64,000 nucleotides of DNA, from contig OX387606.1 in the NCBI GenBank assembly GCA_947568835.1, forward strand, positions 20,871,225-20,935,224, read 5' to 3'. The DNA is from Protonemura montana. Its lineage: Eukaryota; Arthropoda; Insecta; Plecoptera; Nemouridae. The position numbers and the translations under genes are program-made. Of this stretch, positions 13,877 to 63,989 are shown in pieces. The notes beneath the pieces were generated by a model. The model was not told the DNA's origin. It did no database searches and saw only the letters and a list, made by a program, of their open reading frames with translations. The stretch's first letter is position 1, and every line of letters starts with the position of its first letter.

Positions 13877-15146
13877 GTAAGGAAACTCCATTCTTTTCAA
13901 CGTTTACCGAGCGTTATTGAGCGATTATTAAGCGTGACAACAGGTAGCTCTAGGCATCTATTTAAGAATCTTTTGACTTCTTAATGCCACATATCTGAGC
14001 ATCACGATCACGCTAACTCGTACGAGCCGCGACACAAAGAACTATCGACGTCGCTATAACACATTGCGGAAGAATGATGTCATCACAGAGGCACTGACTG
14101 ACAACTTAAAGCAAAACTTCCGATTAAACAGGTGCATAACTCCTCGACAGGCAGCCGAAATCAACTCAAAGACACCTGAAAGCTAGTGCTAAACGCGAGA
14201 GTCTTAGAATCTGTTAGACGACAAGGTGGGTGTAAGAACATTTGGTTTATTAAAGATATAATTTTAAGTGTAATAGTACTTTTTTTTAATTCATCTTCTT
14301 TTTTGAATGAATACACTCTAAACTGTCATTTGCTAGTAGTAAATAATTTGCCGGTGCAGCTAGTTTCATTTGCCAAATAGGTTCGTTGACGGAAATGTGT
14401 GTACCGTTAGTCGCTCAGTGCCACATTAATGCTAAGAAATCGAAGCCAAGCGTAAGAAAGGTCAAGGACTTGCTCGAGCCGCTTCGTGTAATTATTTGTG
14501 TCATCATCGCAATCGAATGTCACTGCAGTACCAAGGCGAAAATTAAACCGCACGCGCTGTACACGAAAAATAACCACATCAAAAACCATCAAACGTCATC
14601 TATCAAAAAATGTAAAGCTTGTTTTTTTTTACACAAGACAATCAAGTCGTTGAACTTAGGTATGCGATCCAGGTCTTCCTCTAGGTTGGAGAAGAACCGG
14701 TTGGTAACCGGAACCGTTTAGAGCGGTCAGAAACTCGCTGGCTCACTCGATCCTGAAGCAAACCTGTAATCACTGCGCACGGTACGCTTCGGAATCGCGC
14801 ACGATTTTAACCATTCGGCTAAAAATGCCGGCGTCTTAGGCGCGCAAATAAAATTCCCAGGATGTACCAGAAATTCGAAAAAACGTTCTGAGCGAACAGA
14901 GAGGTGATCAGATACAATTTTTTATGAACATACCACTTGACTAGCTGCATTTGAGAAACCTATACAAGGTGGATTACAGTTTCTCTTGGATATTTTGTTT
15001 CGGGGTCAATCAAATCAATCAAGCCTTCCTTGGGACCATCCTTGAAAACGAAATTAGTGGTTCACTCAGTCACTAACCAACATTCCATGTTAACTTTGAT
15101 AACTATAGTTTTTGACAGTTAATTCATTAATGCCCGTTTTTCTAGA
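13877..15146. other. Stretch with no supported gene (putative P450 5' intron)
   Basis: No repeat, RNA gene or conserved coding exon could be recognised. If the GC-rich block at 13490-13876 is a leader exon, this is the first intron of the P450 gene, ending at TTTTTCTAG (15146). Confidence 0.4.
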
Positions 15147-36085: not shown

Positions 36086-37248
36086 TTTCTTTAAAAATGC
36101 GTTGTACCATCGAAAGATCAGCACAGCCACCATTTTGCTCCTGTTCGCCATATTTTCTCTAGGGCTTTGGGCAAAAAATTGGAGGTTTGCGTTGTGAATG
36201 AGCGTAGGTACGTTTCTTATCCAAACCGAAGAGTCGTCATGGAGAACAGTAAACTTAAAGTAACTTTTAAATACATTACATTTGGGAGGCCATAAAAAAA
36301 TTGATTTTCTGTGATTAAAATGTGAGATTTTAATCAACTGCAGAGAGATGCATTCCTTGTGATTATGTTTGTGAAGCTTTAAGATTTCAAAATATAATGA
36401 CGATAATCCCAACTCTGGTCTTAGTTTCACAGCAATTGCAACCTTCAAACTGTTAGGCTTTCGCAATGACAATCACGTTGCTGGTTGTGTGGTCTTATTT
36501 TTGCTAAAAAAAAAGAGCACCCTTATTAACGAATTACGATAATAATTTTGAAACAATGTTGAACGCTTCAAATGTGATTTAAATTCGTAAACTTAACTCT
36601 AATGAAGACAAGATCGAGGCACAAAATGTCACTAAATGTGGTCGGAATAATGCAAAATAGATTAGTAGATATTCATTTTGTTAGCTACATTTGCTCCACA
36701 AAAGCGTGAGGTGGTAACCAGCTAAATCACAAATAAACGATTAACACCGAAAATAAAGACAACATTAACAAACTGGTTAGGTGATACAAAAACCTCGTTT
36801 GTGCGTTTAACTTTGTGCCTTTTAACTTACTAGCAAGTTCAAATGCAAGGCAATTAACAGCAAATTAAGAAATCGACATTTTGAAAGCGTTGAGACAAGA
36901 TTATCGATTTCACATTTCACCCTTTTATGTAAACCCTTGCTTGTTGACGTTTTAGTGCGACCACCTGTGTGACCGACCACTATGTGTGATAGCAGGTACG
37001 CATGGCTAAAACAAATATGCTGACCATTTCCACTTTCCTTCCCTCTTTAACAACAAAGTTATGCAAACTTTACGCTTCTGATTCCAAATAAGAGGCGTAA
37101 AAATAGGGGGAACTTTCCTATTAAATGCGTTGCAAAAATTAAAACCAAACAAGACGAATATCATGCAGCTAAAGGGGACATAAAAATACATGTTTTATTT
37201 TAATCTCATTCCCAGTGACAAACAAATTCTTTTCGCACGGAGGCCACC
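36086..37248. other. Spacer between GR genes 3 and 4
   Basis: AT-rich DNA with no supported exon. The right part is the duplicated upstream region described for GR gene 3 (shared AAAACCTCGTTTGTGCG and CATTCCCAGTG motifs). A GCCACC context precedes the ATG at 37249. Confidence 0.5.
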
Positions 37249-39158
37249 ATGCACCGACTTGCCAGTATTTCTCGGGTCCATGATCTCTATGTCGCCACGT
37301 TGCCTATGTACTACGTGTCACTCGCGTTCGGCCTGGTCTCTTTTACGTACTCGCCGTCCGGCGCTCGGACCACGCGGCCAAGAACGTTTCTGAGCTGCCT
37401 GTCACTCATCGGCATAGCAGCTGGACTCTACTATCAGACGGTGACACGGTACTACAAGCAAGGGTTCGACTTCAAAGCGGTAATATCAAACATAGAAACA
37501 ATCTGTTGGTGTGGGTCCATCATCGTCAAATGCATCCTTGTGTTTGTAAATCGCAAGAAAGTCGTCAATCTGCTGCACAAGGTTATCGAAACAGACAAAC
37601 GCCTCTCGCCATTCGTGGGAAACAAGAATAAACACTACGGGTTGATATTCTGGAATACAATCTGCCAGATTTTTTTAGAAAATCTTTCAATATTTACGAT
37701 CGTCTTCATTCATTTTTGTAACAGTACGAAATATCGTATTTTCTCTGATATTCTCTCCTTTATTTGCGGCGTTGCCCATGAGATTGCCGATTTGCAGTTC
37801 ATTAACCTCATCATCCTCTGTGGGATTTTCTTCAAACTGATAAACAAAGCGATCGAAGACAGTTTCTTAGAGGCACGCAAGGGTACTCTGACTGTAACTG
37901 CAATCAGGGAGCTTGCCGAACTTCACGACGCCGTTTGTGAGTTGCTCCAGAGCGTCTTGGACGCCTACGCCACCCAGATCCTGATTTCGACCTCATCAAT
38001 GTTCTTGGAGATGACTGTCGGGTTGTACTATGCAGGGCATCACATGAAGTTTAATGCTTCAGACGTGAACGGGGTTTTCACCAGCCTGTATTGGGCGTTC
38101 TACATGTTCGGAACGGGCAGCTTTTTCATATTGAATTCAACGCGCACGGCAACACAGGTAACTGTTTGCAAGAATTTAAATACGATTTTTTAATGAACGT
38201 ATTTTTGTTTATTGTATTCTGTTCTAGTATGTAATGTTTTTTTTTTCTGTATTGTAAAGGTAGAAATGGAAAATCTATACTTTTAAGTTCGTAAAGAAAA
38301 ATTATAACTATTTGGAAAAGTGATGAGAAAAGTAGAAAATAGATAACCTAAGCAAAGACTTGAAATATAATATTAAAAGAGGCGAGTAGGAAAACCGAGG
38401 GAAAGATGGATAGGCAAATTGAGAATTTATATTTAAAAAAGTGGAAATACTGGGATAAGATTAAAAAAAAAGATAAAAGATGGTTTGAGATTGCAATGAG
38501 ATTGCAAATAAAGAAAATATTGAAATGATTGAAAAGCAGATGAGTGTATGATTTAGAAAGAATATGTAACAAGGATCAGGTTGATGCGTTTAATGTCTAA
38601 AAGGTAAAATGGGTAGCTTGTTTAAATGGAAGAGATTAATATTTAAAAAAATGTAGTTAGCTACGTCTCAGTGTAGGTATTTGCAAGAATTAAGTTGATT
38701 GTTATTGAACTAACAATTCTAAGGTCATAAGTAAGAGCGCATAGCTTATTTCTAGCGTCTTTCTGCAGGCAAATTTGGCGCCGACGGTTTTGCACAAAAT
38801 GCTAGGGAGACATTTGAGCCCGGACATTCAAAGAGAGGTGAATTACAGTTACACTTACTACCGCCTATTACACAACAACCCACATTAAGCACGTGTCAAT
38901 CTTGCAGGTAAAGATGTTCTCCCGTCAACTTCGACACAAGAAAGTCACCTTGACAGTATACAACTTATTCACACTGGATGTGACGCTGCTCTTCACGGTG
39001 AGTTACCAAGGAAAGCCGTCGATCGAATCGTGTGAGATCGATGCCATGTTATCGAGCTAATTGATGGTTTGTGTCGTTTGTTTTAGGTGATAGGGACTTC
39101 GGTGTCGTATCTCGTGTTTATGATGCAATTTGAAAATGTTAGTCAAGACACCATATAG
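37249..39158 (+). CDS. Gustatory receptor, 4 coding exons, 379 aa (GR gene 4)
   Basis: Exons: 37249-38157, 38769-38837, 38908-38997, 39087-39158, all phase 0. It is the mosaic twin of GR gene 3: near-identical start, middle block and exons 2-4, but different in the segments at about residues 68-105, 150-180 and the end of exon 1, which is five codons longer. Signature in the last exon: TSVSYLVFMMQF. Intron 1 is 611 bp against 149 bp in gene 3 and contains a LINE-like remnant. AATAAA lies at 39224, 66 bases after the stop. Confidence 0.85.
38375..38570 (+). repeat. LINE-like remnant in GR gene 4 intron 1
   Basis: The frame RRVGKPRERWIGKLR resembles the RRRGRPRKRW motif near the C-terminus of non-LTR retrotransposon proteins, followed by a decayed Lys-rich stretch. 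It sits in the extra sequence that makes this intron longer than its counterpart in GR gene 3. Short and degraded. Confidence 0.35.
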
Positions 39159-48600: not shown

Positions 48601-51600
48601 CTGAGAATGCCATAATCACAACGCTAATGAAAAAGCAATTGCCTGAAAAGTAAAAAGTCTGCTGTGTGATTACGAAATTAATCTTGTGACCAGCAAATAT
48701 CAATTAAATAGTTTTGACCCAGTGAGACCGCTCCGTTCCCAGCGGAGACCGCGTGAAAGTTGGACCCAACGGTCACATTGATGACCGTTGAGAGAGACGC
48801 GACTCGAATGCAAGTCATTGATATAAGATCCTCGTGAGCTTCGGGCTAAACCAGAAAATACAACAATACAACAATACAACAATGGACCGGCAATAAAAAA
48901 AGGCGTAACACGCAAAGTAGTACGATTTTCTTAGCTTTTATGAAGTCGAAATAATGGCTGTCCATATCATCACATTTCAGGGCCGTGTTTTCAAATTTCT
49001 TCATGCAAGTGCTGAGTGGCCACCATAATATAATTTAATAATAAGTAGCTAAAAAACAATTAAGAAATTATTAATATTTTCCGTCAGTGTTTATCGCCGA
49101 GGCAAATCATGTTACGCAAAAGCGGTCTAAATGGCAATAAGAGCCAATTGACCTTTGCCTTACACTCTCACACGGGGAGCTCGCGTCTGCCGGTGAAGAG
49201 CTCTCCTAAGATTTCACTCGATTTGTACGAGGCTTGCGAAGCAGATGACCTTTCCAAAGTGAGCGCGACCAGTGCTGAGCGGTGACCTGCGCCGAAGGGG
49301 GAATTTCAGTAATAATTAAACAGTTTCCATGATTTACCTAGAAGTCTCACGAAGGATTGTGAACAGGTAGAGTCCAGACTGACAGGTTTACGCGCATGGC
49401 CCCAGGGCGTTGACGGCCAAGATTCATTGTTAGCTGCGTTCATGGCCCAACTAAATGTTATGCAACACCAGTATGTGCTTGCTTAAAACCCGTGCAGACT
49501 AGTGAAGCCAATCAGTTAAAATCACTAATTAATCAGAAATAACTTCGATGTTTTGATGATTTTATGCCAGATTTCATATCGTCTAGCTCACAAGTCCATG
49601 AAATCATATAACAGATTACAAAATGAAGCTCTGGCATCTTGAAACTAAGAAACGAAGTTAGTCTGTGCAATCTACGTACATCACTAAGGTGCGTAAGTTT
49701 ATCTGCTGCTAGCCATGAACTAAGATGTTCATAAAGTAGACCCGTGAGCCTCAAAGAAAACAAAATGAATGAGCATGAAGGGCCCAAGGAAAGACGTCAG
49801 ACTAAAAGCTCGCAGCACGCAGTGGGAGGCTTTTTTTTTTAAGGCTAGAAGGAGCGTTTGTGACTAGGAATATCTGAAAACGGATAACTTTCGATCTTAT
49901 CTGTGATATCCAACATTTAGTACCACATGTTGAGACCATGCCGAAAGTGAGAACAGTATATTTGTATTTTTATTTTAAACCTTGTATTTTTTTAAGTTAA
50001 GCAACAATGTGCTGCGTCGGGCAACGGATGGGTGACCACTGACCATCGAACGTATGTCTATTTTAGCGTAGAAGAGAGGTTTCAGGGATGGAACTAAGTA
50101 CAACAGCCTCACTCTTTTACTTTGTCAACCTCTCGGCAGCATGGATTAATGAAGGATTCCCATGCACCAGTCCCACAAGACCCGTACATCTACACGATGT
50201 GTCCCTAAACGCCCCAAGCAAATGAATGACCTTGTTCCTGTGTTCCTACCGAGGAAGCTGGCCGCAGCCCAGGTGCACCAAGATGACACCTCCCTCTCGC
50301 TGTCGGGCGGAGGGCACGACCACGACGGGGAACACCACCACCACCACACACACATCGAGGCTCTGGACGTCAAGTGTGACAACTCCGGGATGTCGGTCAC
50401 CATTGACTTCAGTGCGCCGTTCGCCGGGGTTGTCTACAGCAAGGGGCACTTCGACAACCCACGTTGCAGGTGAACTTACCCCTATAATCAACCCCTGGGT
50501 ATTGACGGCACACCTCTGATTAAGCACTTTACTCAAATTGTTCTTAGCAGGTCATTTTCGTTGCTAACTTAAGAAAAAAAACCCCAAGCATGTGAGGTTC
50601 AATGGTAGATTCAACGTTTGGTAGCCATGGAGATGCTGAGATCGCCTGACAGAGCTTCTCAACTCTGCTATATTATGTTACCACGGGCATATATCATGGC
50701 CTAGCATGGGAGGATCAATTGTAGATTCAACGTTTGGTAGCCATGGAGATGCTGAGATCGCCTGACAGAGCTTCTCAACTCTGCTTACTTATGTTAACAC
50801 GGGTAACCAGACCGATCGCAGAAATAAACGGGGGCACCAATAAGTATTACCCCCCCCCCCCCAACCCCCTCCCCATTCACAAAAAGAAAACTCTCTCTGA
50901 GATCCACCAATTTCCAGCAGTTATTTTAAAATTAGCTGCACTTAATAGCACTAATGAATCACTAAATACCCTGAGAGTATAGCGCCCAATCTGAAGGTGG
51001 AGGCGCCAACTTTATGCAGCTGAATAAATTGTTTTTAGTGACTTCCACGCAAGAGCGAAGTTATTACACAAGGACAGCTCAAACTTCTAGAAAATTCGTT
51101 TTATAATGGAATACTTCGAATAGCAATTGCCACTGATCGCTTTTTTTCGTTGTTGGTAAGCCACGTTTTTTAAACTATTCGGCAACCTTCAAATATCCAC
51201 ACATTTTCTTACTTCGAGGAATCTGAAATCGGTTTCTCTCGTCCTTTCGTCGCAACTTTGGCAAAAATAATTATGTTTGTGATATCATAAGTCGTCTTCG
51301 AGTGTATAAAAAAAAAATTGAATAAAAAAAAAAATATTATGCCACGAATTTTTTTAGGCAATAATGATGCCACAAACTGCGTCAGAAAAAAAATCACGTA
51401 CCAAAGTCGTATTCATTAAACGCGGAGGTAAAAAGTACCACTTTCCCTCGCACTTGCGCCGAGCGGTGACTGAAAATATGTGCTAATCAGCGATAATCAT
51501 ATTTGACCGGCGCAAAGATGAGGTAAGAACGTTCTCGAGCAACGTCTTCGGGTGCCGACTGACCTATTGACCGATCGATGCTGTTTGCCTTGCGGGCAAG

Positions 51601-54600
51601 GCCGACGGAACCCAAGTCACGTGCACTTCAGTTAGCACCGTTACACGCGCGTCACTTCGAACGTGATCGGGCCTCGAACGGGGATCGGCGCGAGGAAGTT
51701 CCCGACTTGAGATGGCTTTCAATCTTAGTGGGTGTATCGTGGATCGAAAGTCCTTTGGGACCCAAAGAGAGACACGTGTTGCTGGCAATCTCTCGCAGGT
51801 GGCATTATTGTTCGACTGTGCCCATCCTTAGCAATAAATTCATGCAACTATCTCTTGCCTAAACAGGAGATTTCTTCCCAGGCGTGCGTGGGTTTTTCAT
51901 GAACATACAGTGACGTTCCATTTCATTGCAAATAATATGAAACGCAAACATTTTTTTTTATCGAATAAGATGTGATAAATTTTTTAACCAATGCCAACTG
52001 CTTTCGTAGGAAGAAAAAAACCACAATGAGCATGATAATGAGTTTCAACAGTATATCTGTCTTGACGGACCGTTTTGAGTTGTCGCTCATCCCGCGGTTG
52101 GCATTGCTGTGCACAATAACCACATACCTACCACAATTCAAATCTACAGAAATGTCAAGGTTCCGTGCCAAGAAAAGATGCTACAAGTTCGACTTTTTTA
52201 ATACCTTCACATGCTGGACAGAAGTTAACCTTGAGCAAACAGTAGTCACACTTATGGTGACGTGTCCATCCATTGTGTGCCTTCATGTCCGGGATCCTGG
52301 AGAAAAAAAACTAAAAATAGCTCATGTTCAAAAATTTGTCCGTAACGAATTCTTGCGTTAATCGATTGCAGATACGTGCGAGCTGGAGGAAGCAAAACCT
52401 CGTACACGTTCCTGATCCCACTGAAAGAATGTGGTACCGTTCCTTCAGGAGGCTTCGGAAAAACAGTGGACAACGTCATCGTCATCCAGTCGGACGACAC
52501 TGTACAGGTAATTGTCACTGACGCCACTGAAAGTTGGCTCAGACGCTGTGACACTCCCTAAGAAAGTTTCTCCTTGCTTTACCTAGGCAGTTTTTTTGGT
52601 CAAAGTTCGGCATCTGACCACCCGGGCGCTCTACGCTTAGAAGATTACACTTTGGAAAAATTAAAAAGCACTTAAGCATGCTTGGAAAATTTTCTTTTTT
52701 TACTATGTCAAAAGCCATGGATATAATTTCTGCTCGATTAATTTACACAAATCAAATCATATCGGGGGTGTGATTTTCTTTAGGTCAAAATGATTGAGAA
52801 AAGTTCAGTTGACCAACAGTTTATGGGTAAAGGAGGCTTAGTAAATTAGCAATAAATTAATTAAAAAATACTTCACAATAAATAAATATTAATAAGACGT
52901 TCTCCTAAAATAAATTGATTTTGTCCAATATTGCTAAAGGCACAAAAATCAAGCCCCCCCCCCCCCCCCCCCCATCCCCCACAAGTTAATGAAAACTCGT
53001 GAAGGTAACTCTGTGTCGTTACCCGTTTGCAGGAGATTTGGGACGCCGCCAGGAAGATCTCATGCGCGACGTCTTCCAGGAAAGACAAGACTGTGATTTT
53101 CAAGCCGTTCGTCGTGGACATGCTGGAGGTGGTCACGGTGCCGGTTTCCACTGGCAGCGTTGACTGCTGGATGGACATTCAGAGGGGCGAGTTCCCTAAC
53201 GTACGTTGCCAACAGATGAAAAGAGACTCAACCCGAAACCACCCCAACGATAGTACTCTCCGTATACTCTCCGTATACTTGGCGTTGGTGCTAGAGTCAA
53301 CAAAATCATATTTCAAAGACCGAGCTGTTTTCAGTAATTCTACCAAAAAGATTGATTTACTTTTTTGAACCTATTGAGGTGCCTTTTACGACAGTTACAC
53401 GTCTTTAATAGCAAAGATTTTCAGATAAATTTATTGAGCAATTTAATTTCAAACTAACTGTCAACAAGGTGAACAGAAAGAATCTAAATGGTAACCCACT
53501 CCTTACCTAATCACCCATACACTTATCTTTGCTACGAATATATTCATCTCATCTCTCGTACATTCTTACGACTCATTATTTACTTTCCATTAGACAGGCT
53601 TTTAAATAGTACTTCAATAATTCCCTCTTTCTCTGTAAGCGATTCAATTAAACTTCTGCCTCAAACATCTTGATCGATGCAAACGTCTCTCCCCATTCAC
53701 ACATCTCCACATTGTCATACGAAGTGTGTCCCATCCCCACAGACCGCCCCGATCGAGGAGATCATCAAGATCGGCGAGACGCTCACGATCCTGGTCTACA
53801 TCAAGGACGCCGACAACGAGTACGACATACGCGTGCGCGATTGTTGGGCGTACGACGGTGAAGACTTCGAAGCGAAGGACACGCACAAACTGCAGCTGAC
53901 GGACAACGAAGGGTGCCCCAGGTGCGTGGGCTGGATTGCCACCCTAGACATTTGCAGCGGTACTTCAAACCTCCTGCATGTTATTTGATGTTAAAATCAA
54001 ATGTTGTATATTATATGATCATGCGATTCATAATAACAGCTTAGGTAACACTTTAATTTCGAATGGTCGAAATGTAATTTTGGTCCATTCATTTTTCAAT
54101 AAGTAGACCTAAGAAGCCAATATTTATGATGTTGAATAAAATTTTTAAATATTTTTATCGCGGAATTTTAGTCAACAAATTGGGCTGTCCCAGCTAGTTA
54201 TCTTAAAATATTTCTCTTGGTATGCTCTCTACAACATAACCATCTTTGACCTACGTAACGCCCTACACTACTGCACTCCATGTTTTTCCTGATAACCACA
54301 TGTAATCTACCTAAAAATATGTTACTCTGTCCAGGAAACGGAAGCTGATCGGTCATTGGCAGAGGACCTACGAGACTGGCAAATCAGGAGCCAGCATAAT
54401 CGCGTACAACAATATCACCGCTTTCAAGTTCCCCGATAAGATGCAAGTGTTCCTCACGTGCAACATTGAGGTGAGTTGTACACAGCAAGACAGAGTTGAG
54501 AGCATGAACTTACTGGAGCAGACGGAAGACAGCAGAGAAATAATGACAATTAGCATGCGTCAAAACCCTCGTTAGTGCGTTTTTCTGTGCTTGGTTCTCT

Positions 54601-57600
54601 CCTATGCGAGAAAAGCGCAATAGCGTGCAAAATGTTATGAAGTTACACATTGCAGATACTAAATTCATTGAAATGAACATGCTCTACCCAGAATTAATCC
54701 TCTCCGCCGCCCCCCCCCCCCCCCCTTCACAAATATTTCGCCCTAGGTGAAGGAACGGGTGGAAAAATAACTGATTTTTCCTAATATTCGAATACCACGG
54801 TTTAGCATATCTATTTAATATGTGTTAAAACACACATTTCATTTCAAGACGGCCATTAATTTTTCAAAATTTTCATAAATGAATGCCATAGTATGTCATC
54901 AGCAAGAAATCAACATTTTCATCAGAAACACGAACATTTGCCAAGTGCTAAGTTTCCCGTTCTTAATCGTTGCAGATCTGCTACGGCGAGTGCGACGGAC
55001 GCTGCGAGGGCGAGGCCACCTCTCCTCGCTGTGGTCCCGGAAGCACAGACAAGCGTTGCCGCATCCCCGGACCAACGACGACCACGTCTAGGCCAATCAC
55101 AAAGGCGATAACACAAACATATCTCCCACCGTCATCCACCCAGCCGCCTCTACGCTGCTACCCAGGATCACCGGACCGAAGATGTCCACAACCTGAGCGC
55201 ATTACGACCACGACAGAACAACCTCTCCGTTGCTACCCTGGATCATCCGACCCCAGGTGTCCAAGAACGACAACAGAAGCACCTCTACGTTGCTATCCTG
55301 GCTCGCCGGACAGGCGATGCCCCCAAACGCCACCGCCTACAAGGCCGCCGACAACGACGACCACCCAGGGACCTCCCCGTTGCTACCCTGGCTCGCCCGA
55401 CCCCAGATGTCCAAGAACGACAACAGAACCACCTCTCAGGTGCTATCCTGGCTCGCCAGACAGGCGATGCCCTCAAACGCCACCGCCCACGAGGCCACCG
55501 ACAACGACGACCACCCAGGGACCTCCCCGTTGCTACCCTGGCTCTCTAGACCCAAGATGTCCGCCTCCGCCGGTGACCGCAGCACCTCGTTGTTACCCCG
55601 GATCAGACGACCCGCGATGTCCCAAAGTACCGCCAACATATCTGCCGCCGACCACCACCGAGGCCCCGCTCAGGTGCTATCCAGGCTCGCGCGATCCTCG
55701 ATGCCCCAGACCTCCGCCTTCGACCACTACGACACCAGCACCTCTACGGTGCTACCAGGGATCGAACGACCCTAGGTGTCCTCGACCACCACCAACAACA
55801 ACAGAAGCTCCCCTAAGATGTTACCCAGGCTCACCAGACCCTAGATGTCCTCGACCACCACCAACAACAACAGAAGCTCCCCTAAGATGTTACCCAGGCT
55901 CACCAGACCCTAGATGTCCTCGACCACCACCAACAACAACAGAAGCTCCCCTAAGATGTTACCCAGGCTCACCAGACCCTAGATGTCCTCGACCACCACC
56001 AACAACAACAGAAGCTCCCCTAAGATGTTACCCAGGCTCACCAGACCCGAGATGTCCTCGACCACCACCAACAACAACAGAAGCTCCCCTAAGATGTTAC
56101 CCAGGCTCACCAGACCCGAGGTGTCCTCGACCACCAACGACAACAACAGAAGCTCCCCTAAGATGTTACCCAGGCTCACCAGACCGTAGGTGTCCTCGAC
56201 CACCACCAACAACGACGACGACCACCACCCAAGGGCCGCCTCGATGCTACCCTGGATCGCCAGATATTCGGTGTCCGAGGCCCCCATCGACCCCAGCGCC
56301 AAGATGCTACCCTGGCTCAGATGATCCCCGCTGCCCAAGGACCACGACGCCAGCGCCAACCTACCTGCCGCCGACAACGACCACTCCAGCGCCTTTGAGA
56401 TGCTATCCTGGTTCACCGGACCCAAGATGCCCACGGCCTCCTACAACGACAACTCCAGCGCCTCTGAGATGCTATCCTGGTTCACCGGACCCAAGATGCC
56501 CACGGCCTCCTACAACGACAACTCCAGCGCCTCTGAGATGCTATCCTGGTTCACCGGATCTAAGATGCCCACGGCCTCCTACAACGACAACTCCAGCGCC
56601 TCTGAGATGCTATCCTGGTTCACCGGATCTAAGATGCCCACGGCCTCCTACAACGACCACTCCAGCGCCTCTGAGATGCTATCCTGGTTCAACGGACCCA
56701 AGATGCCCACGGCCTCCTACAACGACCACTCCAGCGCCTCTGAGATGCTATCCTGGTTCACCGGACCCAAGATGCCCACGGCCTCCTACAACGACCACTT
56801 CAGCGCCTCTGAGATGCTATCCTGGTTCACCGGACCCAAGATGCCCACGGCCTCCTACAACGACCACTCCAGCGCCTCTGAGATGCTATCCTGGTTCACC
56901 GGACCCAAGATGCCCACGGCCTCCTACAACGACCACTCCAGCGCCTCTGAGATGCTATCCTGGTTCACCGGACCCAAGATGCCCACGGCCTCCTACAACG
57001 ACCACTCCAGCGCCTCTGAGATGCTATCCTGGTTCACCGGACCCAAGATGCCCACAAATACCCACTTCCACACCGCCGACATTCAGATGTTACCAAGGTT
57101 CCACTGACCCGCGGTGTCCCCAACCCCCAACGACCACGTACGCCCCCCCGACAACAACTCCGTTCTTCTGTCCTTGTCTGACGCAGAACCCACCCATCTG
57201 CACTTTCGGCAGCACCGACCCTCGTTGTCCCACCACGACCACGCCGCGTCCAACGACGCCTCCCATCTGCTACCCTGGCTCGACGGACTTGCGCTGTCCG
57301 ACAACGTCGACGACGACGAGGAGACCTCAGTGCTACGTTGGAAGTACCGACCCCCGTTGCCCGCCGCCCACGCGCCCGCCATGCTACCCAGGATCGCCCG
57401 ATCCCCTGTGCCCGACCACTCCGAAACCGACGTATTTGCCGCCGGTGCAGCGATGCTATCCTGGCTCCCCCGATCCGCTCTGTCCAACCACTCAACGACC
57501 AACAACTACTCAACGACCAACAACCACTAGAAGACCGTGCTACCCTGGCTCCCCCGATCCGTTCTGTCCGACCACTCAACGACCAACAACCACTCAACGT

Positions 57601-60600
57601 CCAACAACCACTAGAAGACCGTGCTACCCTGGCTCCCCCGATCCGTTCTGTCCAACCACTAGAAGACCGTGCTATCCTGGCTCCCCCGATCCGCTCTGTC
57701 CGACCACTCAACGACCAACAACCACTCAACGTCCAACAACCACTAGAAGACCGTGCTACCCTGGCTCCCCCGATCCGCTCTGTCCAACCACTCAACGTCC
57801 AACAACCACTAGAAGACCGTGCTATCCAGGCTCCCCCGATCCGTTCTGTCCAACCACTAGAAGACCGTGCTATCCTGGCTCCCCCGATCCGCTCTGTCCA
57901 ACCACTAGAAGACCGTGCTATCCTGGCTCCCCCGATCCGCTCTGTCCAACCACTCAACGTCCAACAACCACTGAACGACCAACAACCACTAGAAGACCGT
58001 GCTATCCTGGCTCCCCCGATCCGTTCTGTCCGACAACTCCGAGAACTATTATCTCGACCTCAACCCCAGGTCCAACCTATCTGCCTCCAGTGCCCACGAC
58101 AAGAGCTCCATGCTACCCTGGATCTCCTGACCCAAGATGTACAACCACTACCACCAGAGCACCTTGCTACCCTGGATCTCCTGACCCAAGATGTCCAACC
58201 ACTACCACCAGAGCACCTTGCTATCCTGGATCTCCTGACCCACGATGCCCGACCACTACCACCAGAGCTCCATGCTACCCTGGATCTCCTGACCCCAGAT
58301 GTCCAACCACTACCACCAGAGCACCTTGCTACGCTGGATCTCCTGACCCACGATGCCCGACCACTACCACCAGAGCTCCATGCTACCCTGGATCTCCTGA
58401 CCCCAGATGTCCAACCACTACCACCAGAGCACCTTGCTACCCTGGATCTCCTGACCCACGATGCCCGACCACTACCACCAGAGCTCCATGCTACCCTGGA
58501 TCTCCTGACCCCAGATGTCCAACCACTACCACCAGAGCACCTTGCTACCCTGGATCTCCTGACCCACGATGCCCGACCACTACCACCAGAGCTCCATGCT
58601 ACCCTGGATCTCCTGACCCCAGATGTCCAACCACTACCACCAGAGCACCTTGCTACCCTGGATCTCCTGACCCAAGATGTCCAACCACTACCACCAGAGC
58701 ACCTTGCTACCCTGGATCTCCTGACCCCAGATGTCCAACCACTACCACCAGAGCACCTTGCTACCCTGGGTCTCCTGACCCAAGATGCCCGACCACTACC
58801 ACCAGAGCACCTTGCTACCCTGGATCTCCTGACCCAAGATGCCCGACCACTACCACCAGAGCACCTTGCTATCCTGGATCTCCTGACCCCAGATGTCCAA
58901 CAACCAGACCTCCGTGCTACGTCGGTTCATCGGACCCCCGCTGCCCCACGACCCCACCTCCCACGTACCTGCCTCCTCAGACAACGCAGGTCTGCCAGTG
59001 CCTGACGCAGAAGCCAGTGGAGTGCTATCCAGGCAGCTCTGACCCGAATTGTCCGACCACGACCCAGCGGCCGCGCACGCCGCCGATCTGTTATCCTGGT
59101 TCGACTGAAGTGGGATGTCCCACTACCACGACCACAGTGAGACCACCCCAATGTTATGTTGGTAGCGTTGACCCGAGGTGTCCGACAACAACGACGCAGT
59201 TCAGGTGTTATCCAGGGAGCAATGATCCTAGGTGCCCGACAACAACGACCCCGGCGCCGTTCAGATGTTTCCCTGGCAGCACCGACTACAGGTGTCCGAC
59301 AACAACGACGCAGTTCAGGTGTTATCCAGGGAGCAATGATCCTAGGTGCCCGACAACAACGACGACGGCGCCGTTCAGATGTTTCCCTGGCAGCACCGAC
59401 TACAGGTGTCCGACGACAACGACGCAGTTCAGGTGTTATCCAGGGAGCAATGATCCTAGGTGCCCGACAACAACGACGACGGCGCCGTTCAGATGTTTCC
59501 CTGGCAGCACCGACTACAGGTGTCCGACGACAACGACGCAGTTCAGGTGTTATCCAGGGAGCAATGATCCTAGGTGCCCGACAACAACGACGCCGGCGCC
59601 GTTCAGGTGTTTCCCTGGCAGCACCGACTACAGGTGTCCGACGACAACGAGGGTGCCGCCGACATACTTGCCACCCCCGAAACCTATTTGCTATCCCGGG
59701 TCGAACGATCCCGACTGCATCGATAGACCCGGGACCCCTGACGAGCCAAAAGAAGATCTGCTGAAGCCACCACAGTGCTTCCCTGGCGCCAAGTACGACC
59801 CTCGGTGCTTCCCAACGACGACGACGACGACACCACGACCGATCCAGAGAGATCCAGTAATTCCGGACAGCCACTCGTTCCACCAATGTAAGTACGCTCT
59901 CTATATGCCGAGAATTTTAAGCTTTGCAGTTCAGTGGTAATAAGTTGAGGTTTTTTATCCCATTATTACTTTACTTCACTAATTTTCTAGGAAAAATCCT
60001 GATAGAAGCTCAAAATAGTACTAGTGCACAAAAAGGTCAGGGCTTTTATGCACTAGTCCAACTTCTTGTGCTGCATTTTAAGGTACACAGTGCATCCAAC
60101 GGTTATAATATCTACATCTTTGGTTCCTATCGTCAAGCCACTGTAATTTCAGCAAATAGTTTATGCGATGAAACTTCTTTTCAAACTTATTGAATAAGCA
60201 TACAGTTCATAGGCGAGTCTTAGATGGTGAATAATCTTTTTCATTTAAAACAGTATGCTGGTAGGTATTGTTTTAACGTGTCTTGAATTTAGGAGCAAAA
60301 CATTATGTTTTGATACAAAATCACAACAGTAAATCTCCAGTAAATCAAAGCGATGTGACTCCAGTGTTAACCCCCAAACCTCTTGACACCTGCAGGGCAA
60401 ACCCAGAAAGTAAACCCAGGCCACCGCCGGCGCGTCTATAATGGCAGCCGACCTCAACGCGACGTCAGCGCCGTGAACGCGGTGCCCGCTAGCCATCACA
60501 GCGTGGAGAAGCGTGAGGTTCAGGAACAGCAAGTCGTGGCCATCACACTTGGAGTCCGAGGTCTCATGGTCGGTACAGAAAAGGATATTGCCACACACTG

Positions 60601-60601
60601 A
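45688..60601 (+). CDS. Giant secreted ZP-domain protein with mucin-like two-Cys repeat array, about 1993 aa
   Basis: Predicted apical extracellular-matrix or cuticle protein. Coding exons: 45688-45720, 50258-50469, 52372-52507, 53033-53200, 53743-53921, 54335-54470, 54976-59887, 60396-60601; phases all agree and the total is 5982 bases. Exon 1 joined to exon 2 gives a signal peptide (MRLLLSVFLLHLAAAQ). A His-rich stretch follows (about residues 31-43), then a ZP domain from Cys51 to about residue 300 with conserved Cys in VKCDNSGM, LKECGT, VRDCWAYD and EGCPRKRK. The 4.9-kb exon then encodes over 60 modules of CYPGSPDPRCP type joined by Thr/Pro linkers likely to carry O-glycans, punctuated by PTYLPP. 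The last exon has a basic HRRR site and no convincing transmembrane helix, so the anchor is unclear or the protein is secreted. An acceptor just before 45672 implies an upstream noncoding exon. ZP polymerisation is a family property; the gene's name is not known to me. Confidence 0.8.
45721..50257 (+). other. Large first coding intron of the ZP gene
   Basis: A 4.5-kb intron between the signal-peptide exon and the His-rich/ZP exon. No coding exon supported. It has a GCGTGGACAT-type minisatellite at about 46210-46262, a short CACTTGCCGTTG tandem at about 47561-47590, and a partial 5S-derived SINE at its 3' end. Confidence 0.55.
49990..50165 (+). repeat. Partial 5S-derived SINE (head plus part of body)
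   Basis: Plus-strand copy starting with 5S-like AAGTTAAGCAACAATGTGCT and the C-box GGATGGGTGACC at about 50026, then GTTTCAGGGATGGAACTAAG, TACAACAGCC, TCAACCTCTCGGCAGCATGG and ATTAATGAAGGATTCC. The tail is missing. It ends about 95 bases before the acceptor of ZP exon 2. Confidence 0.7.
50600..50805 (+). repeat. Tandem duplication of about 107 bp in a ZP intron
   Basis: The block with GTAGATTCAACGTTTGGTAG and CATGGAGATGCTGAGATCGC occurs twice in direct orientation, about 107 bases apart. The two copies differ at few positions, mainly near their ends. No coding potential recognised. Confidence 0.75.
55140..56260 (+). repeat. Coding repeat block A of the ZP gene (TTTEAPLR type)
   Basis: First part of the array: early diverged modules (spacers with RPPTTTTTQGPPR), then five near-identical units with linker RPPPTTTEAPLR (about 55790-56115). 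The unit is CYPGSPDPRCP plus a 12-residue linker (23 codons, 69 bases). Neighbouring units are nearly identical at DNA level, which suggests recent unequal exchange. Confidence 0.85.
56380..57060 (+). repeat. Coding repeat block B of the ZP gene (TTTTPAPLR type)
   Basis: Ten units of 69 bases (23 codons): CYPGSPDPRCPRPP followed by TTTTPAPLR. Variants are SPDLRC, STDPRC and one TTTTSAPLR. DNA identity between units is very high and codon choice differs from block A, so this block expanded separately. Confidence 0.9.
57450..58050 (+). repeat. Coding repeat block C of the ZP gene (TTRRPCYPGSPDPLCP type)
   Basis: Modules CYPGSPDPLCP or CYPGSPDPFCP alternate with linkers of one to three copies of TTQRPT or TTTRRP, giving variable spacing. 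Leu or Phe replaces Arg before the second Cys throughout the block, unlike blocks A, B and D. Confidence 0.85.
58097..58905 (+). repeat. Coding repeat block D of the ZP gene (18-residue units, 15 copies)
   Basis: Fifteen units of CYPGSPDPRCPTTTTRAP (54 bases). The first has Thr in place of Pro after the second Cys and the fifth has CYAGS. In the middle part two DNA versions alternate (AGAGCTCCATGC and AGAGCACCTTGC), so the real repeat period there is 108 bases. Confidence 0.9.
59185..59650 (+). repeat. Coding repeat block E of the ZP gene (dimeric QFR/PFR units)
   Basis: Four dimers in which CYPGSNDPRCP alternates with CFPGSTDYRCP, linked by TTTTQFR and TTTTxAPFR. Each dimer is 38 codons (114 bases). 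DNA copies are almost identical. Confidence 0.85.
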
Positions 60602-61096
60602 TCAGTGCCATATCGCAAAGTGTTCGTGTAGGATTTTAGATGCACAGTTTCGAGTAGTTTCTTAAATTAAGAAATTTATTGATCTGGATATTGCCTGCAT
60701 GAAAATAATTATTTAATAGGGAATAGAGGTCAGAAATAATTGAAGTTTACTGGACATTTTCTAAGGCTGCAAAGCTAATGACAGAGAATACATTTCTAAT
60801 TTTTAAAGAAACTTCTAGTGAAAGACACCCTGAAAAAATTTGTTTAGATATCTTTGCCATTACAATCAAAAGCTGGAATGTGTCAATGAGCGATTACTGA
60901 ATAGAACGTGCGTTCTAGTAGCATCAGTAGCGAGTAGTTTTTATACAATACTAACTTGTCAAAATATGGATTTGGCATGTTTATAACTGTGCTAAATATG
61001 TATGGATCTAAATCTTTTTTAGTAAAAATAAAGTTAATTCCAATTTTAAGCTGCATCATATTATTGACCACTACCATCTCATGATTCCGACGATTT
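60602..61096. other. Convergent 3' spacer between the ZP gene and the RING gene
   Basis: AT-rich DNA between two convergent genes. An AATAAA for the ZP gene is possible at 61027. On the minus strand, an AATAAA (plus-strand TTTATT at about 60675) could serve the RING gene. Nothing else is recognised. Confidence 0.5.
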
Positions 61097-63989
61097 TCAA
61101 GTCAGAGCGCAACGAAAGCAGCTGAAGTCTGCACGAGCTTTCATACAGATGCTGTGGTAAGAGTGTCCGCAGCGGAAAGTGGTCAGGCCTTCCTCGTGGA
61201 GCAGAGCTCTTGTTTTCAGCGGCAAACAGCAGCTGGAGCAGACGTCTTCAGCAAGATTTAGGCAGACACCCCACGGCTTTAAAATCCCACTCTTGGCCAC
61301 CTCTGAACCACTGTTGTCTGATATTGATCTGAGATGCTCTCGGCTCTGCACAGGTCAATACAGGTCAATACAGGTGTTAACAATGTGGTATGTATTAGCT
61401 GCATGTATGGGCTTAAGTTTTTTTAAATGAACTCTCTTTAAGCAATAAAAAAAGACACTTTTAAAATCATTAATATTGAATGAACAGGCACTAGAATTTA
61501 ATAAAAAAAAAAAAAAACTTGTGACTTCCAATAATAAAAGGACTATTGAAATGAAAATTTTGGGTACCCATCAAAACATTATTTATTATACAATGAGATT
61601 TATTTCACTCTTCTTTAACTTATTTTTAATTTATTTAATTTAATTTATTTATTTTAAATTTTAAATTTAATTTTCAAAAAATGTTTTAAATTACTGTAGA
61701 CACAAATTGAAAGGCCAAGCTCATACTTAGAGATATCCTGTAAATAAATATACACCACGAAAAAAAATGAACCCGTTTGCACCTAGGATTTGCTTGAAAT
61801 CCTCAGTCGAAACTCGATTTTTTGTGCGTTTGTATAGTTTTGAATAGCCATTGTGTGGAACAAAGATTCCATAGACTTTAAAAAAATCGCATTGTTTAAA
61901 AGATAAACTTTTGAAGGGTACCAAACATTTTCATTTTGGTAGTAATTTTATTACCTACTGTAGGTACTAAAAAAAAAATGAAATTCCAATTTTTTTTTTA
62001 ATTTAAGTTCAAGTGCAGCCTTAAAATGTTTTTAGCCTGCATAAGATAAAAAAATTATATTCCAATTTAAAACACTGTTGTGGCAATCAAGATGGAAGGT
62101 TATTAAAAGGATAACAAAAGAATGGAATATTACTACAGTAAAATGGCCAATTTAAATCTCTAGAATTGGCGCTGCGTTCCAAAATGTTTGCCGCAACTGG
62201 TCGATTTAAATAAACGAACCTTTAATGGTATGCCGACGCTTGGTGAAACATCACTTCCAAATAAATCTTGAGCAATGAACGAACCGACGGCTTCCGAGCC
62301 CAATCCAGGGACGTAACGTTCCACGACTCTTGACAGCAGGCAGCTTCGGTAGAACCTGGTAGCAAATTTTACCGGATTGTTATTATTGTGATGAATTGCT
62401 TAAAAGCACTCAGCCCATAAGCCATCATTCAAAAAGAACAAACCTGGTATCTAGTTTCCCAGGGCCAATCTGAGATTCAAATTTCAACAAAAGTTGAATT
62501 GCACTGGCTGCCCCCAAAGACTTGACCAGCAGCAGTCCAAGATCAGTCCACGAGATGGGAGAGAGATTATCGAAATCAGCAATATTCCTGTCGCAGTTCA
62601 GGCAACTTCCGGCATGATATTTCAAAAGCAGGTTTATTGCTTTCTCCCACAGGCTTTCATCAAACTTTGGCAGCAAGAATTCAAGCTCAGAAATTGCTCC
62701 GACTTGAACTATCAGGGGTAAGACTTTTAATATGTTTTCTTTCCGCCTATTCTTCAAAATATAACACCACATTCCTGGTATAAGACTCGAGATACGATAA
62801 AGTTCTTTTTGATTAGTTTTCCATAAGACGTTGCAAATGAGTTCACCAATTCGTGGGAAATGGGCGACTTGAACAGCAGATCTGGGCAATGGAAATTCAC
62901 AATAACAAGATTGCTCAGACAATGATGAAGAATTCAAACATTCAAACCCTTCGATAATGAAGTGACTTAGTTCATTGTCAACTAGAGCAGCTTCAAGAAT
63001 GACATCATCAGAAATATTGTCAATGTAGGAAAGAAAATGTTTCCTACACTTAATAACAGCGCTTTCCCTTTCGGTGCCAGCGTTTTCAAGTCGTGATTGG
63101 AGCCGCAGAACGAGATAGAGAACGTCTTTTAAGTCAACAGACTCCCCCATTTTTGAGCACGTTTCTGGTTGGCCCATTCGTAGGACACAAAACATGGCAT
63201 TCAGTTGCAACGGCAAAGGCCATTTTCCTTGTCCGTCGGATTTGGAAACATTTAAGGCACCATCTTCGAGAAGATTCAGAACCGTGCACAGCATTAGATA
63301 GTAGCAAGGCACTTCTGTAGTCTTCTTGATCTCACTTAGTATTGCTTCGGCTTCAAGTAATTCAGAAAATACTTGAAGAATATTGCTCAGAAATGCATCA
63401 ATATTTACGCTGGCTGGAGAGTGAACGGATTGAAGATATTCAGGTGATTTTAGTTGACTTGCCACAGTATCAAGATCGAGACTTTTGAACCATTCGATGA
63501 TAATGTTTGATTGAAAAGATTTGAGCAGCAACTCCTGAATGATATGGCACTGAATTGGAAAGTAATGAGTAAAGGGAAATGTTTTCACAGCCCTGGAAAA
63601 ATACACTCTATCAACTGTCGTCTCTAAGCATGGAGAACTATCAAATTCTATGCAGATTGTGCTTACGCTAGCAAAGAATTTGAAAACTTGGTGAGTGACA
63701 TCTTCACCTCTACGATAACAATTTTCTATGTCTATGCAAAGGTCAATTATTTTAGAGGTATCTAGCTTTGGATAAGGCACTTTCTTTGAAATTCCATTAA
63801 ACTTGGAATGTACAATTTCATCTCTTGTAAAAGCATTTAGTGGAATGGGCTGAAGATTTGGGAGAACATGGGAATCTCTCAAATGAATGTCGAGGAGTTT
63901 TGGCTCGTTTTCAACGGCCAAACTCTTCATTTTATCTTCCAAAACAAGCCATGTTTCTTTCAAAGATTTTGTGCTGCTGGTTATTTTCC
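61097..63989 (-). CDS. Trafficking-type protein with C-terminal RING-like finger, HPS5- or Vps8-like (partial)
   Basis: The 3' part of a minus-strand gene. Exons: 63989-62444, 62355-62220, 61345-61097 (stop at 61099-61097), with consistent phases; an acceptor CTCTGTTTCAG at the window edge shows that more exons lie outside. The visible 643 residues are mainly helical, without membrane segments. They include SWTDLGLLLVKSLGAASAIQ, which resembles the end of HPS5 (BLOC-2 subunit). The last exon encodes a Cys/His cluster, CSSCCLPL..FRCGHSYHSICM..CFRC, a RING-type finger like that at the C-terminus of CORVET/HOPS subunits such as Vps8. Human HPS5 as I recall it has no such finger, so identity is unsettled. 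Role: endosome or lysosome-related organelle traffic, inferred from family resemblance only. Confidence 0.5.
61350..62219. other. Last intron of the RING gene
   Basis: AT-rich intron of about 870 bases with long A/T runs (about 61500-61700 and 61970-62010). A short CAGGTCAATA tandem lies next to the acceptor of the RING exon at about 61350-61373. No coding or repeat family recognised. Confidence 0.6.

Follow-up and report, generated by a model that had tools for sequence, protein, structure and literature searches.

ZP proteins shape insect surfaces. For two of them in Drosophila, Tyn and Dyl, the ZP domain is reported to be both required and enough to form matrix, while the regions outside it differ (PMC12758534, in part). 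The giant Drosophila ZP protein Dumpy carries an exon, PIGSFEAST, of about 40 tandem near-identical repeats that show concerted evolution, probably by unequal crossing over, and whose number serves as a strain marker; in the part of the source concerned, the protein is membrane-anchored and its 102-residue repeat precedes the ZP domain, surrounded by EGF and DPY modules (PMC2930355). Among cuticle proteins, CPCFC has a repeated two-cysteine motif, C-x5-C, in two or three copies (PMC12426002, PMC8622913, both in part). Excerpts of another source treat a lack of cysteines as a hallmark of cuticular proteins, and record YLP-like motifs not only in cuticle proteins but also in resilin, in a peritrophic mucin and in two ZP proteins, Miniature and Dusky-like (PMC2932725). 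Here we describe a predicted ZP gene (the array gene) in a 64,000-nucleotide stretch of the Protonemura montana genome (contig OX387606.1, positions 20,871,225 to 20,935,224, forward strand; the window), in which 1,636 of the 1,983 residues found come from one exon made mostly of a ten-residue repeat, a two-cysteine module.

By analogy, the nearest design to the array gene is Dumpy's PIGSFEAST exon, since both are giant ZP proteins with a large exon of tandem near-identical repeats, as far as the partial Dumpy source goes. However, in the array gene a cysteine module of 10 residues follows the ZP domain, and no EGF module or membrane helix was found; Pfam hits beyond ZP-type domains were absent from the exons found, which do not include the 5' part of the gene. 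Like CPCFC, it would be a cuticle protein with a repeated two-cysteine motif, yet its 70 modules are C-x8-C and accompany a ZP domain, whereas CPCFC is described, in the excerpts concerned, with C-x5-C and no ZP domain; C-x5-C repeats are not formed by the modules, and no Pfam family matched the giant exon. Canonical insect ZP proteins, of the Dusky/Miniature type and others, have ZP-N plus ZP-C, as does the array gene. This gene is real, selected and unusual in its proportions, yet built on known principles.

The ZP gene and its giant exon

Seven coding exons were predicted in one shared reading frame, with all six introns GT-AG (Table 1), and were joined into a partial protein of 1983 residues. 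Here Pfam detected ZP-N (25.3 bits, cut-off 24.7, residues 41-111) and ZP-C (47 bits, cut-off 24.6, residues 181-289), which agrees with a previous sequence-only reading of the window that placed a ZP domain upstream of the array. CUT_N was also above its cut-off (31.7 bits, cut-off 27) and CUT_C was below (26.9 bits, cut-off 30), so the two cuticlin domains did not both exceed their cut-offs. In a PDB sequence search with the ZP part there were 13 matches, all with E 0.11 or worse and none named as a ZP protein.

The single giant exon proposed in that reading has exact boundaries, with an acceptor (ttgcag/ATCTGC) at 54976, a donor (CCAAT/gtaagt) after 59887 and no internal stop, and it lies in an open frame of 1657 residues (54967-59940). 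Its proposed connection to the ZP exons also held, with the ZP-C match crossing the predicted junction. When the first 33 residues of the giant exon (of 311 searched) were omitted, ZP-C decreased from 47 to 36.4 bits, with the profile match ending at position 121 rather than 133, and CUT_C decreased from 26.9 to 17.2 bits. This gain in the ZP-C score shows that the coding sequence of the giant exon begins with the last ZP-C cysteines (ICYGECDGRC) and continues into the array. As five upstream coding exons join in frame and the ZP-C match spans the junction, the array exon is assigned by prediction to the ZP gene.

Table 1. Predicted coding exons of the array gene and blocks within its giant exon (window positions).
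Feature	Position	Strand	Basis
First coding exon found, start of ZP-N	50254..50469	+	Frame and donor; ZP-N match from residue 41; 5' end uncertain
ZP-N coding exon	52372..52507	+	GT-AG, phase-compatible; Pfam
Coding exon, ZP-N end and linker to ZP-C	53033..53200	+	GT-AG, phase-compatible; aligned to paralogue L026
ZP-C coding exon	53743..53921	+	GT-AG, phase-compatible; Pfam ZP-C residues 181-289
ZP-C coding exon	54335..54470	+	GT-AG, phase-compatible; Pfam
Giant exon: last ZP-C cysteines (ICYGECDGRC), then 70-module array	54976..59887	+	Open frame; module list; ZP-C score gain
Block 1: TYLPP, modules 2-8	55117..55635	+	
Block 2: TYLPP, modules 9-18, 69-bp units	55636..56358	+	
Block 3: TYLPP, modules 19-33, 69-bp units, then CxCLTQ cassette	56359..57429	+	
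Block 4: TYLPP, modules 34-42, TTQRP/TTRRP linkers	57430..58074	+	
Block 5: TYLPP, modules 43-58, 54-bp units, 108-bp higher-order period	58075..58962	+	
Block 6: TYLPP, second CxCLTQ cassette, modules 59-69, 114-bp two-module units	58963..59661	+	
Last TYLPP, module 70, longer variant CFPGAKYDPRC, exon end	59662..59887	+	
Predicted last coding exon: basic HRRR and EKR, hydrophobic VVAITLGVRGLMV, stop; cysteine-free	60396..60601	+	GT-AG, phase-compatible

Being 4.9 kb long, open and mucin-like in composition, the exon could also be a gene in its own right, a separate secreted mucin that merely adjoins the ZP exons, particularly as the exon join is predicted from sequence. However, the first residues of the exon complete both ZP-C and CUT_C, phase and GT-AG signals fit, and in a ZP paralogue elsewhere in the genome (locus L026) the homologous ICRYQCPDQC shares a single frame with ZP-C, and we give a separate gene very little credence.

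Three further features of the ZP gene were observed. A His-rich segment, HDHDGEHHHHHTH, lies at 50300-50360 in the first exon found, directly before ZP-N, and may bind metal; the intron after this exon contains a 116-bp unit in 1.9 tandem copies with 94% matches (50587-50803); and C runs occur at three intronic spots, at about 50850, 52955 and 54710.

Modules, blocks and constraint in the array

The giant exon contains 70 copies of C-x2-G-S-x4-C, 27 of them exactly CYPGSPDPRC, together with one longer variant near its end, CFPGAKYDPRC. More than 60 two-cysteine modules had been claimed, which this count supports, although the eleven-residue unit then given (CYPGSPDPRCP) stands as a C-x8-C unit but not in its length, being the 10-residue module plus the following Pro. 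With overlaps allowed, C-x8-C occurs 89 times, whereas 1000 residue shuffles of the exon averaged 6.2 and never exceeded 15, and outside the giant exon the module pattern gave three chance occurrences in the six frames of the window. Position 2 of the module is Tyr in 64/70 copies, position 7 is Asp in 69/70 and position 9 is Arg in 57/70, while position 5 is Ser in every copy, encoded by TCN in 57 and AGY in 13. The exon has 149 cysteines, 140 of them inside modules, with the others being three at the ZP-C end, two CxC pairs in duplicated cassettes and two in the longer variant. Between the modules lie 863 linker residues composed of 34.8% Thr and 30.9% Pro, as expected from the mucin-like Thr/Pro linkers noted before, and with 66.9% Pro, Thr and Ser together these provide the Pro/Thr/Ser-rich tandem repeats of a secreted mucin; the exon has no Trp.

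A short spacer, TYLPP, occurs seven times (55117, 55636, 56359, 57430, 58075, 58963 and 59662) with differing codons, compared with a mean of 0.0085 and at most 2 in 2000 trials with shuffled linkers. It bounds six multi-module blocks (7, 10, 15, 9, 16 and 11 modules) in addition to single first and last modules; the distinct linkers of the five blocks (A-E) distinguished earlier are therefore upheld, but their number is not. TYLPP resembles the repeated Tyr-Leu-Pro motif of Pro-rich extracellular YLP-like proteins such as resilin, Mucin 91C, Tweedle and CPR, as given in part of PMC2932725, but in the array it is a sparse spacer between blocks of cysteine modules. For this likeness only the TYLPP core was counted, and the Pfam YLP model (PF02757) gave no match in the giant exon.

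Modules of the same block are on average 82% identical in DNA, those of different blocks 67%. In block 5 (14 units) mean identity was 97% at lag 2 versus 92% at lag 1, and several adjacent units of the array are 100% identical. Older copies are also present: the CxCLTQ cassette occurs twice, with 52/73 residues and 146/219 nucleotides identical, and the ends of blocks 1 and 2 match in 46/55 residues and 112/165 nucleotides. These older between-block duplications, combined with near-identical units within blocks, suggest that block duplication came first and within-block amplification later. Unit sizes and identities differ by block, and from this pattern the blocks are read as having amplified separately, matching the separate histories proposed in the sequence-only reading. 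Array length polymorphism between individuals is likely because recent neighbouring copies are identical.

The module is constrained as protein. Over 44 distinct copies the proportions of synonymous (pS) and replacing (pN) differences were 0.85 and 0.17, a ratio of 0.19 (0.18 over all 70), while a neutral simulation of unconstrained change (n=200) gave a mean pN/pS of 0.94 and a minimum of 0.75, to be taken as a guide and not a probability, as module copies are related. The module pattern demands Cys1, Gly4, Ser/Ala5 and Cys10, so the pattern itself creates some of the invariance at these positions and somewhat lowers pN; less tied to the definition are the share of cysteines that fall in modules and the invariant Ser5, where Ala was permitted, and the sole unit left out of the set was the longer variant. 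Two ancient in-array duplications have protein identities of 71% and 84% compared with DNA identities of 67% and 68%, and departures from consensus were 7 synonymous to 3 replacing in block 2 and 31 to 2 in block 5.

These results also bear on whether the array is a tandem-duplication by-product, with little function, in a tolerant Thr/Pro tail. Its fully identical recent neighbours and its two-level tandem structure, typical of unequal exchange, would suit such an origin. However, the low pN/pS relative to the simulation, the better preservation of ancient duplicates as protein than as DNA and the retention of TYLPP with different codons all argue against it, making an array of little function improbable.

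Proposed architecture and ZP relatives

Our preferred reading, to which we assign a probability of roughly 0.55, is that the product of the array gene is a ZP protein secreted into the apical extracellular matrix (cuticle or pre-cuticle) and bearing a long disulfide-looped, probably O-glycosylated arm. The ZP domain would assemble the protein into a polymer, with each subunit bearing a flexible arm of about 1,600 residues from the giant exon. This arm would be formed of 70 ten-residue loops, each closed around a Pro/Gly turn by a Cys1-Cys10 disulfide, with Thr/Pro linkers that are probably O-glycosylated and with the seven tyrosine-bearing TYLPP motifs as punctuation, and it would fill space, retain water and add rows of matrix contacts through disulfide exchange and tyrosine cross-links. 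Cleavage at a basic site in the last exon, should it occur, would leave the arm on the polymer, since no furin-type R-x-K/R-R site was found in it or elsewhere in the joined protein. Secretion, polymerisation, disulfide pairing, glycosylation, cleavage and tissue are all features that we infer.

A more tentative idea, possible in our view but not one we would lean on, is that the CYPGS module represents an undescribed mini disulfide loop, dozens of which after a ZP domain make a length-tunable, cysteine-rich glyco-arm that replaces the short, cleaved, membrane-anchored tail, with copy number as a means of tuning how thick or stiff the matrix is. If unit number does vary between individuals, this would give a natural dosage series for arm length against matrix properties, and the module repeat might serve as the basis of an engineered disulfide-loop biomaterial.

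Several points weigh against the preferred reading. The gene structure as a whole, including the exon joins, is a prediction, and scans of the upstream window found no convincing signal-peptide exon: stricter settings gave 0 candidates and looser settings 8, with the five beyond position 15,000 all out of phase 2, and we infer secretion from the ZP domain. Neither basic motif of the last exon, HRRR or EKR, fits R-x-K/R-R. Glycosylation of the arm is read from its Thr/Pro composition, and there are no N-x-S/T sites for Asn-glycosylation in the giant exon. Constraint is not uniform, as block 3 alone showed 9 synonymous versus 12 replacing departures (with its tenth, diverged unit counted). An AlphaFold model of three modules (31 window segments used) had a mean predicted local distance difference test (pLDDT) score of 74.5, a predicted template modelling (pTM) score of 0.25 and no secondary structure, and as a model neither supports nor excludes a loop. 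Finally, within block 5 and some of block 6 the cysteines on either side of a linker likewise have eight residues between them, so that a bond from Cys10 to the following Cys1 would be just as feasible there.

This last point is shared by a different reading, in which the cysteines mainly cross-link molecules and the arm is a disulfide-gelling polymer rather than a series of closed loops. The density of cysteines in the giant exon, their even placement every nine residues in block 5, which makes pairing ambiguous, and the two extra CxC pairs would all be compatible with this. However, in-module spacing is fixed at eight residues in 70/71 units while linkers range from 6 to about 30, which suggests that the in-module pair matters, and we consider a mainly cross-linking role rather doubtful. 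It is far less probable that the giant exon is a precursor cut into many small cyclic peptides. Many similar C-x8-C units are present, and RR precedes some of those in block 4, but there are 14 dibasic sites for 70 units, nine followed by Pro and five by Cys, with no G-K/R-K/R amidation site and no R-x-K/R-R, and a ZP domain accompanies the units.

Returning to the array protein, a furin-type site after ZP-C is described as usual and not universal ('usually followed'), and in Drosophila cleavage after ZP-C generally comes before matrix incorporation (PMC7665627, in part). In the predicted last exon, VVAITLGVRGLMV has a mean hydropathy of 2.05. No clear membrane helix was found downstream at 59888-62300, where one borderline stretch at 61010 had no detected acceptor, and the first AATAAA after the predicted last exon is at 61027.

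We also compared the gene with ZP paralogues in the same genome (258 Mb, 34 contigs searched). A ZP-C family search listed seven places, three above cut-off, with the array gene, which is exon-split, among the four below. Using tblastn with the ZP part against the six other places, five were matched and L028 gave none. Among the places listed, the closest relatives are L026 (39% over 185 residues) and L031 (34-49%, three pieces), which both have ZP-N plus ZP-C and which we take to be of the Dusky/Miniature type. L026, the sole paralogue inspected for tail layout, is one 344-residue frame, without module or TYLPP, in which ZP-C ends at residue 168, a furin-type RARR/RQRR follows about 50 residues later at 218-224 and a membrane helix starts from about 282. 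From this comparison, the array of about 1,600 residues occupies the place where L026 has its cleavage site and membrane helix. The residue two past the fourth ZP-N cysteine, presumably the key ZP-N tyrosine position, is Thr in the array gene (CATSSR), Trp in L026 and L031, and Tyr in L027. Drosophila Zye is reported without a key ZP-N tyrosine (PMC7665627, in part), and we suspect that the array gene has a relative in annotated insect proteomes, perhaps Zye, the link being weak because L026 and L031 are also without this tyrosine.

L026 (C1:346278) and L031 (C1:360201) lie about 14 kb apart on opposite strands. At L027 (C1:12590643) the ZP-C match adjoins a frame with many EGF-like cysteine patterns, and by eye the gene is perhaps Dumpy- or NompA-like.

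Distribution of the module and neighbouring features

A genome search with a composite module query placed at least 43 of at least 54 listed matches inside the array. Eight of the 11 others were in or beside L021, L022, L023 and L025, which are low-complexity repeats open in several frames, and were rejected; the remaining three, two on contig C15 and one on C16 at 17.38 Mb, had E values of 0.4-2.3. As far as this search shows, the module appears to be confined, among the matches listed, to one locus in this genome. At E up to 10, Pfam gave no match to the array and the PDB sequences gave none to the composite query; NCBIfam, a library built for prokaryotes, gave none to the array at E up to 1. 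This is in line with the initial impression that the module belongs to no named family. Viral and prokaryote collections gave 114 and 591 pattern matches, respectively, none of which were confirmed. The exact module DNA pattern had 0 matches in the whole genome, even in the array itself, as codons vary, and is uninformative. In one open-access literature library no publication contained the exact module peptide strings, and among the matches listed for shorter strings only 'cypgs' was found, chiefly as an abbreviation for cyclopentenone prostaglandins. A plant trypsin-inhibitor-like loop was considered and dropped because its spacing differs and Gly precedes Ser.

L022 (C4:24330500-24339500) and L023 (C1:28900000-28909500) are long low-complexity satellites whose open frames reach 20,592 residues; these are probably not genes, being open in several frames. 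Elsewhere in the window, positions 37219-38190 (+) hold a 324-residue single-frame candidate for a 7tm_7 chemosensory receptor (63.4 bits), a family that indicates arthropod and probably insect DNA, and from about position 63778 a neighbouring gene on the opposite strand (L024:3-1895, -) has an HPS5 beta-propeller match (PF23756, E 1.3e-92).

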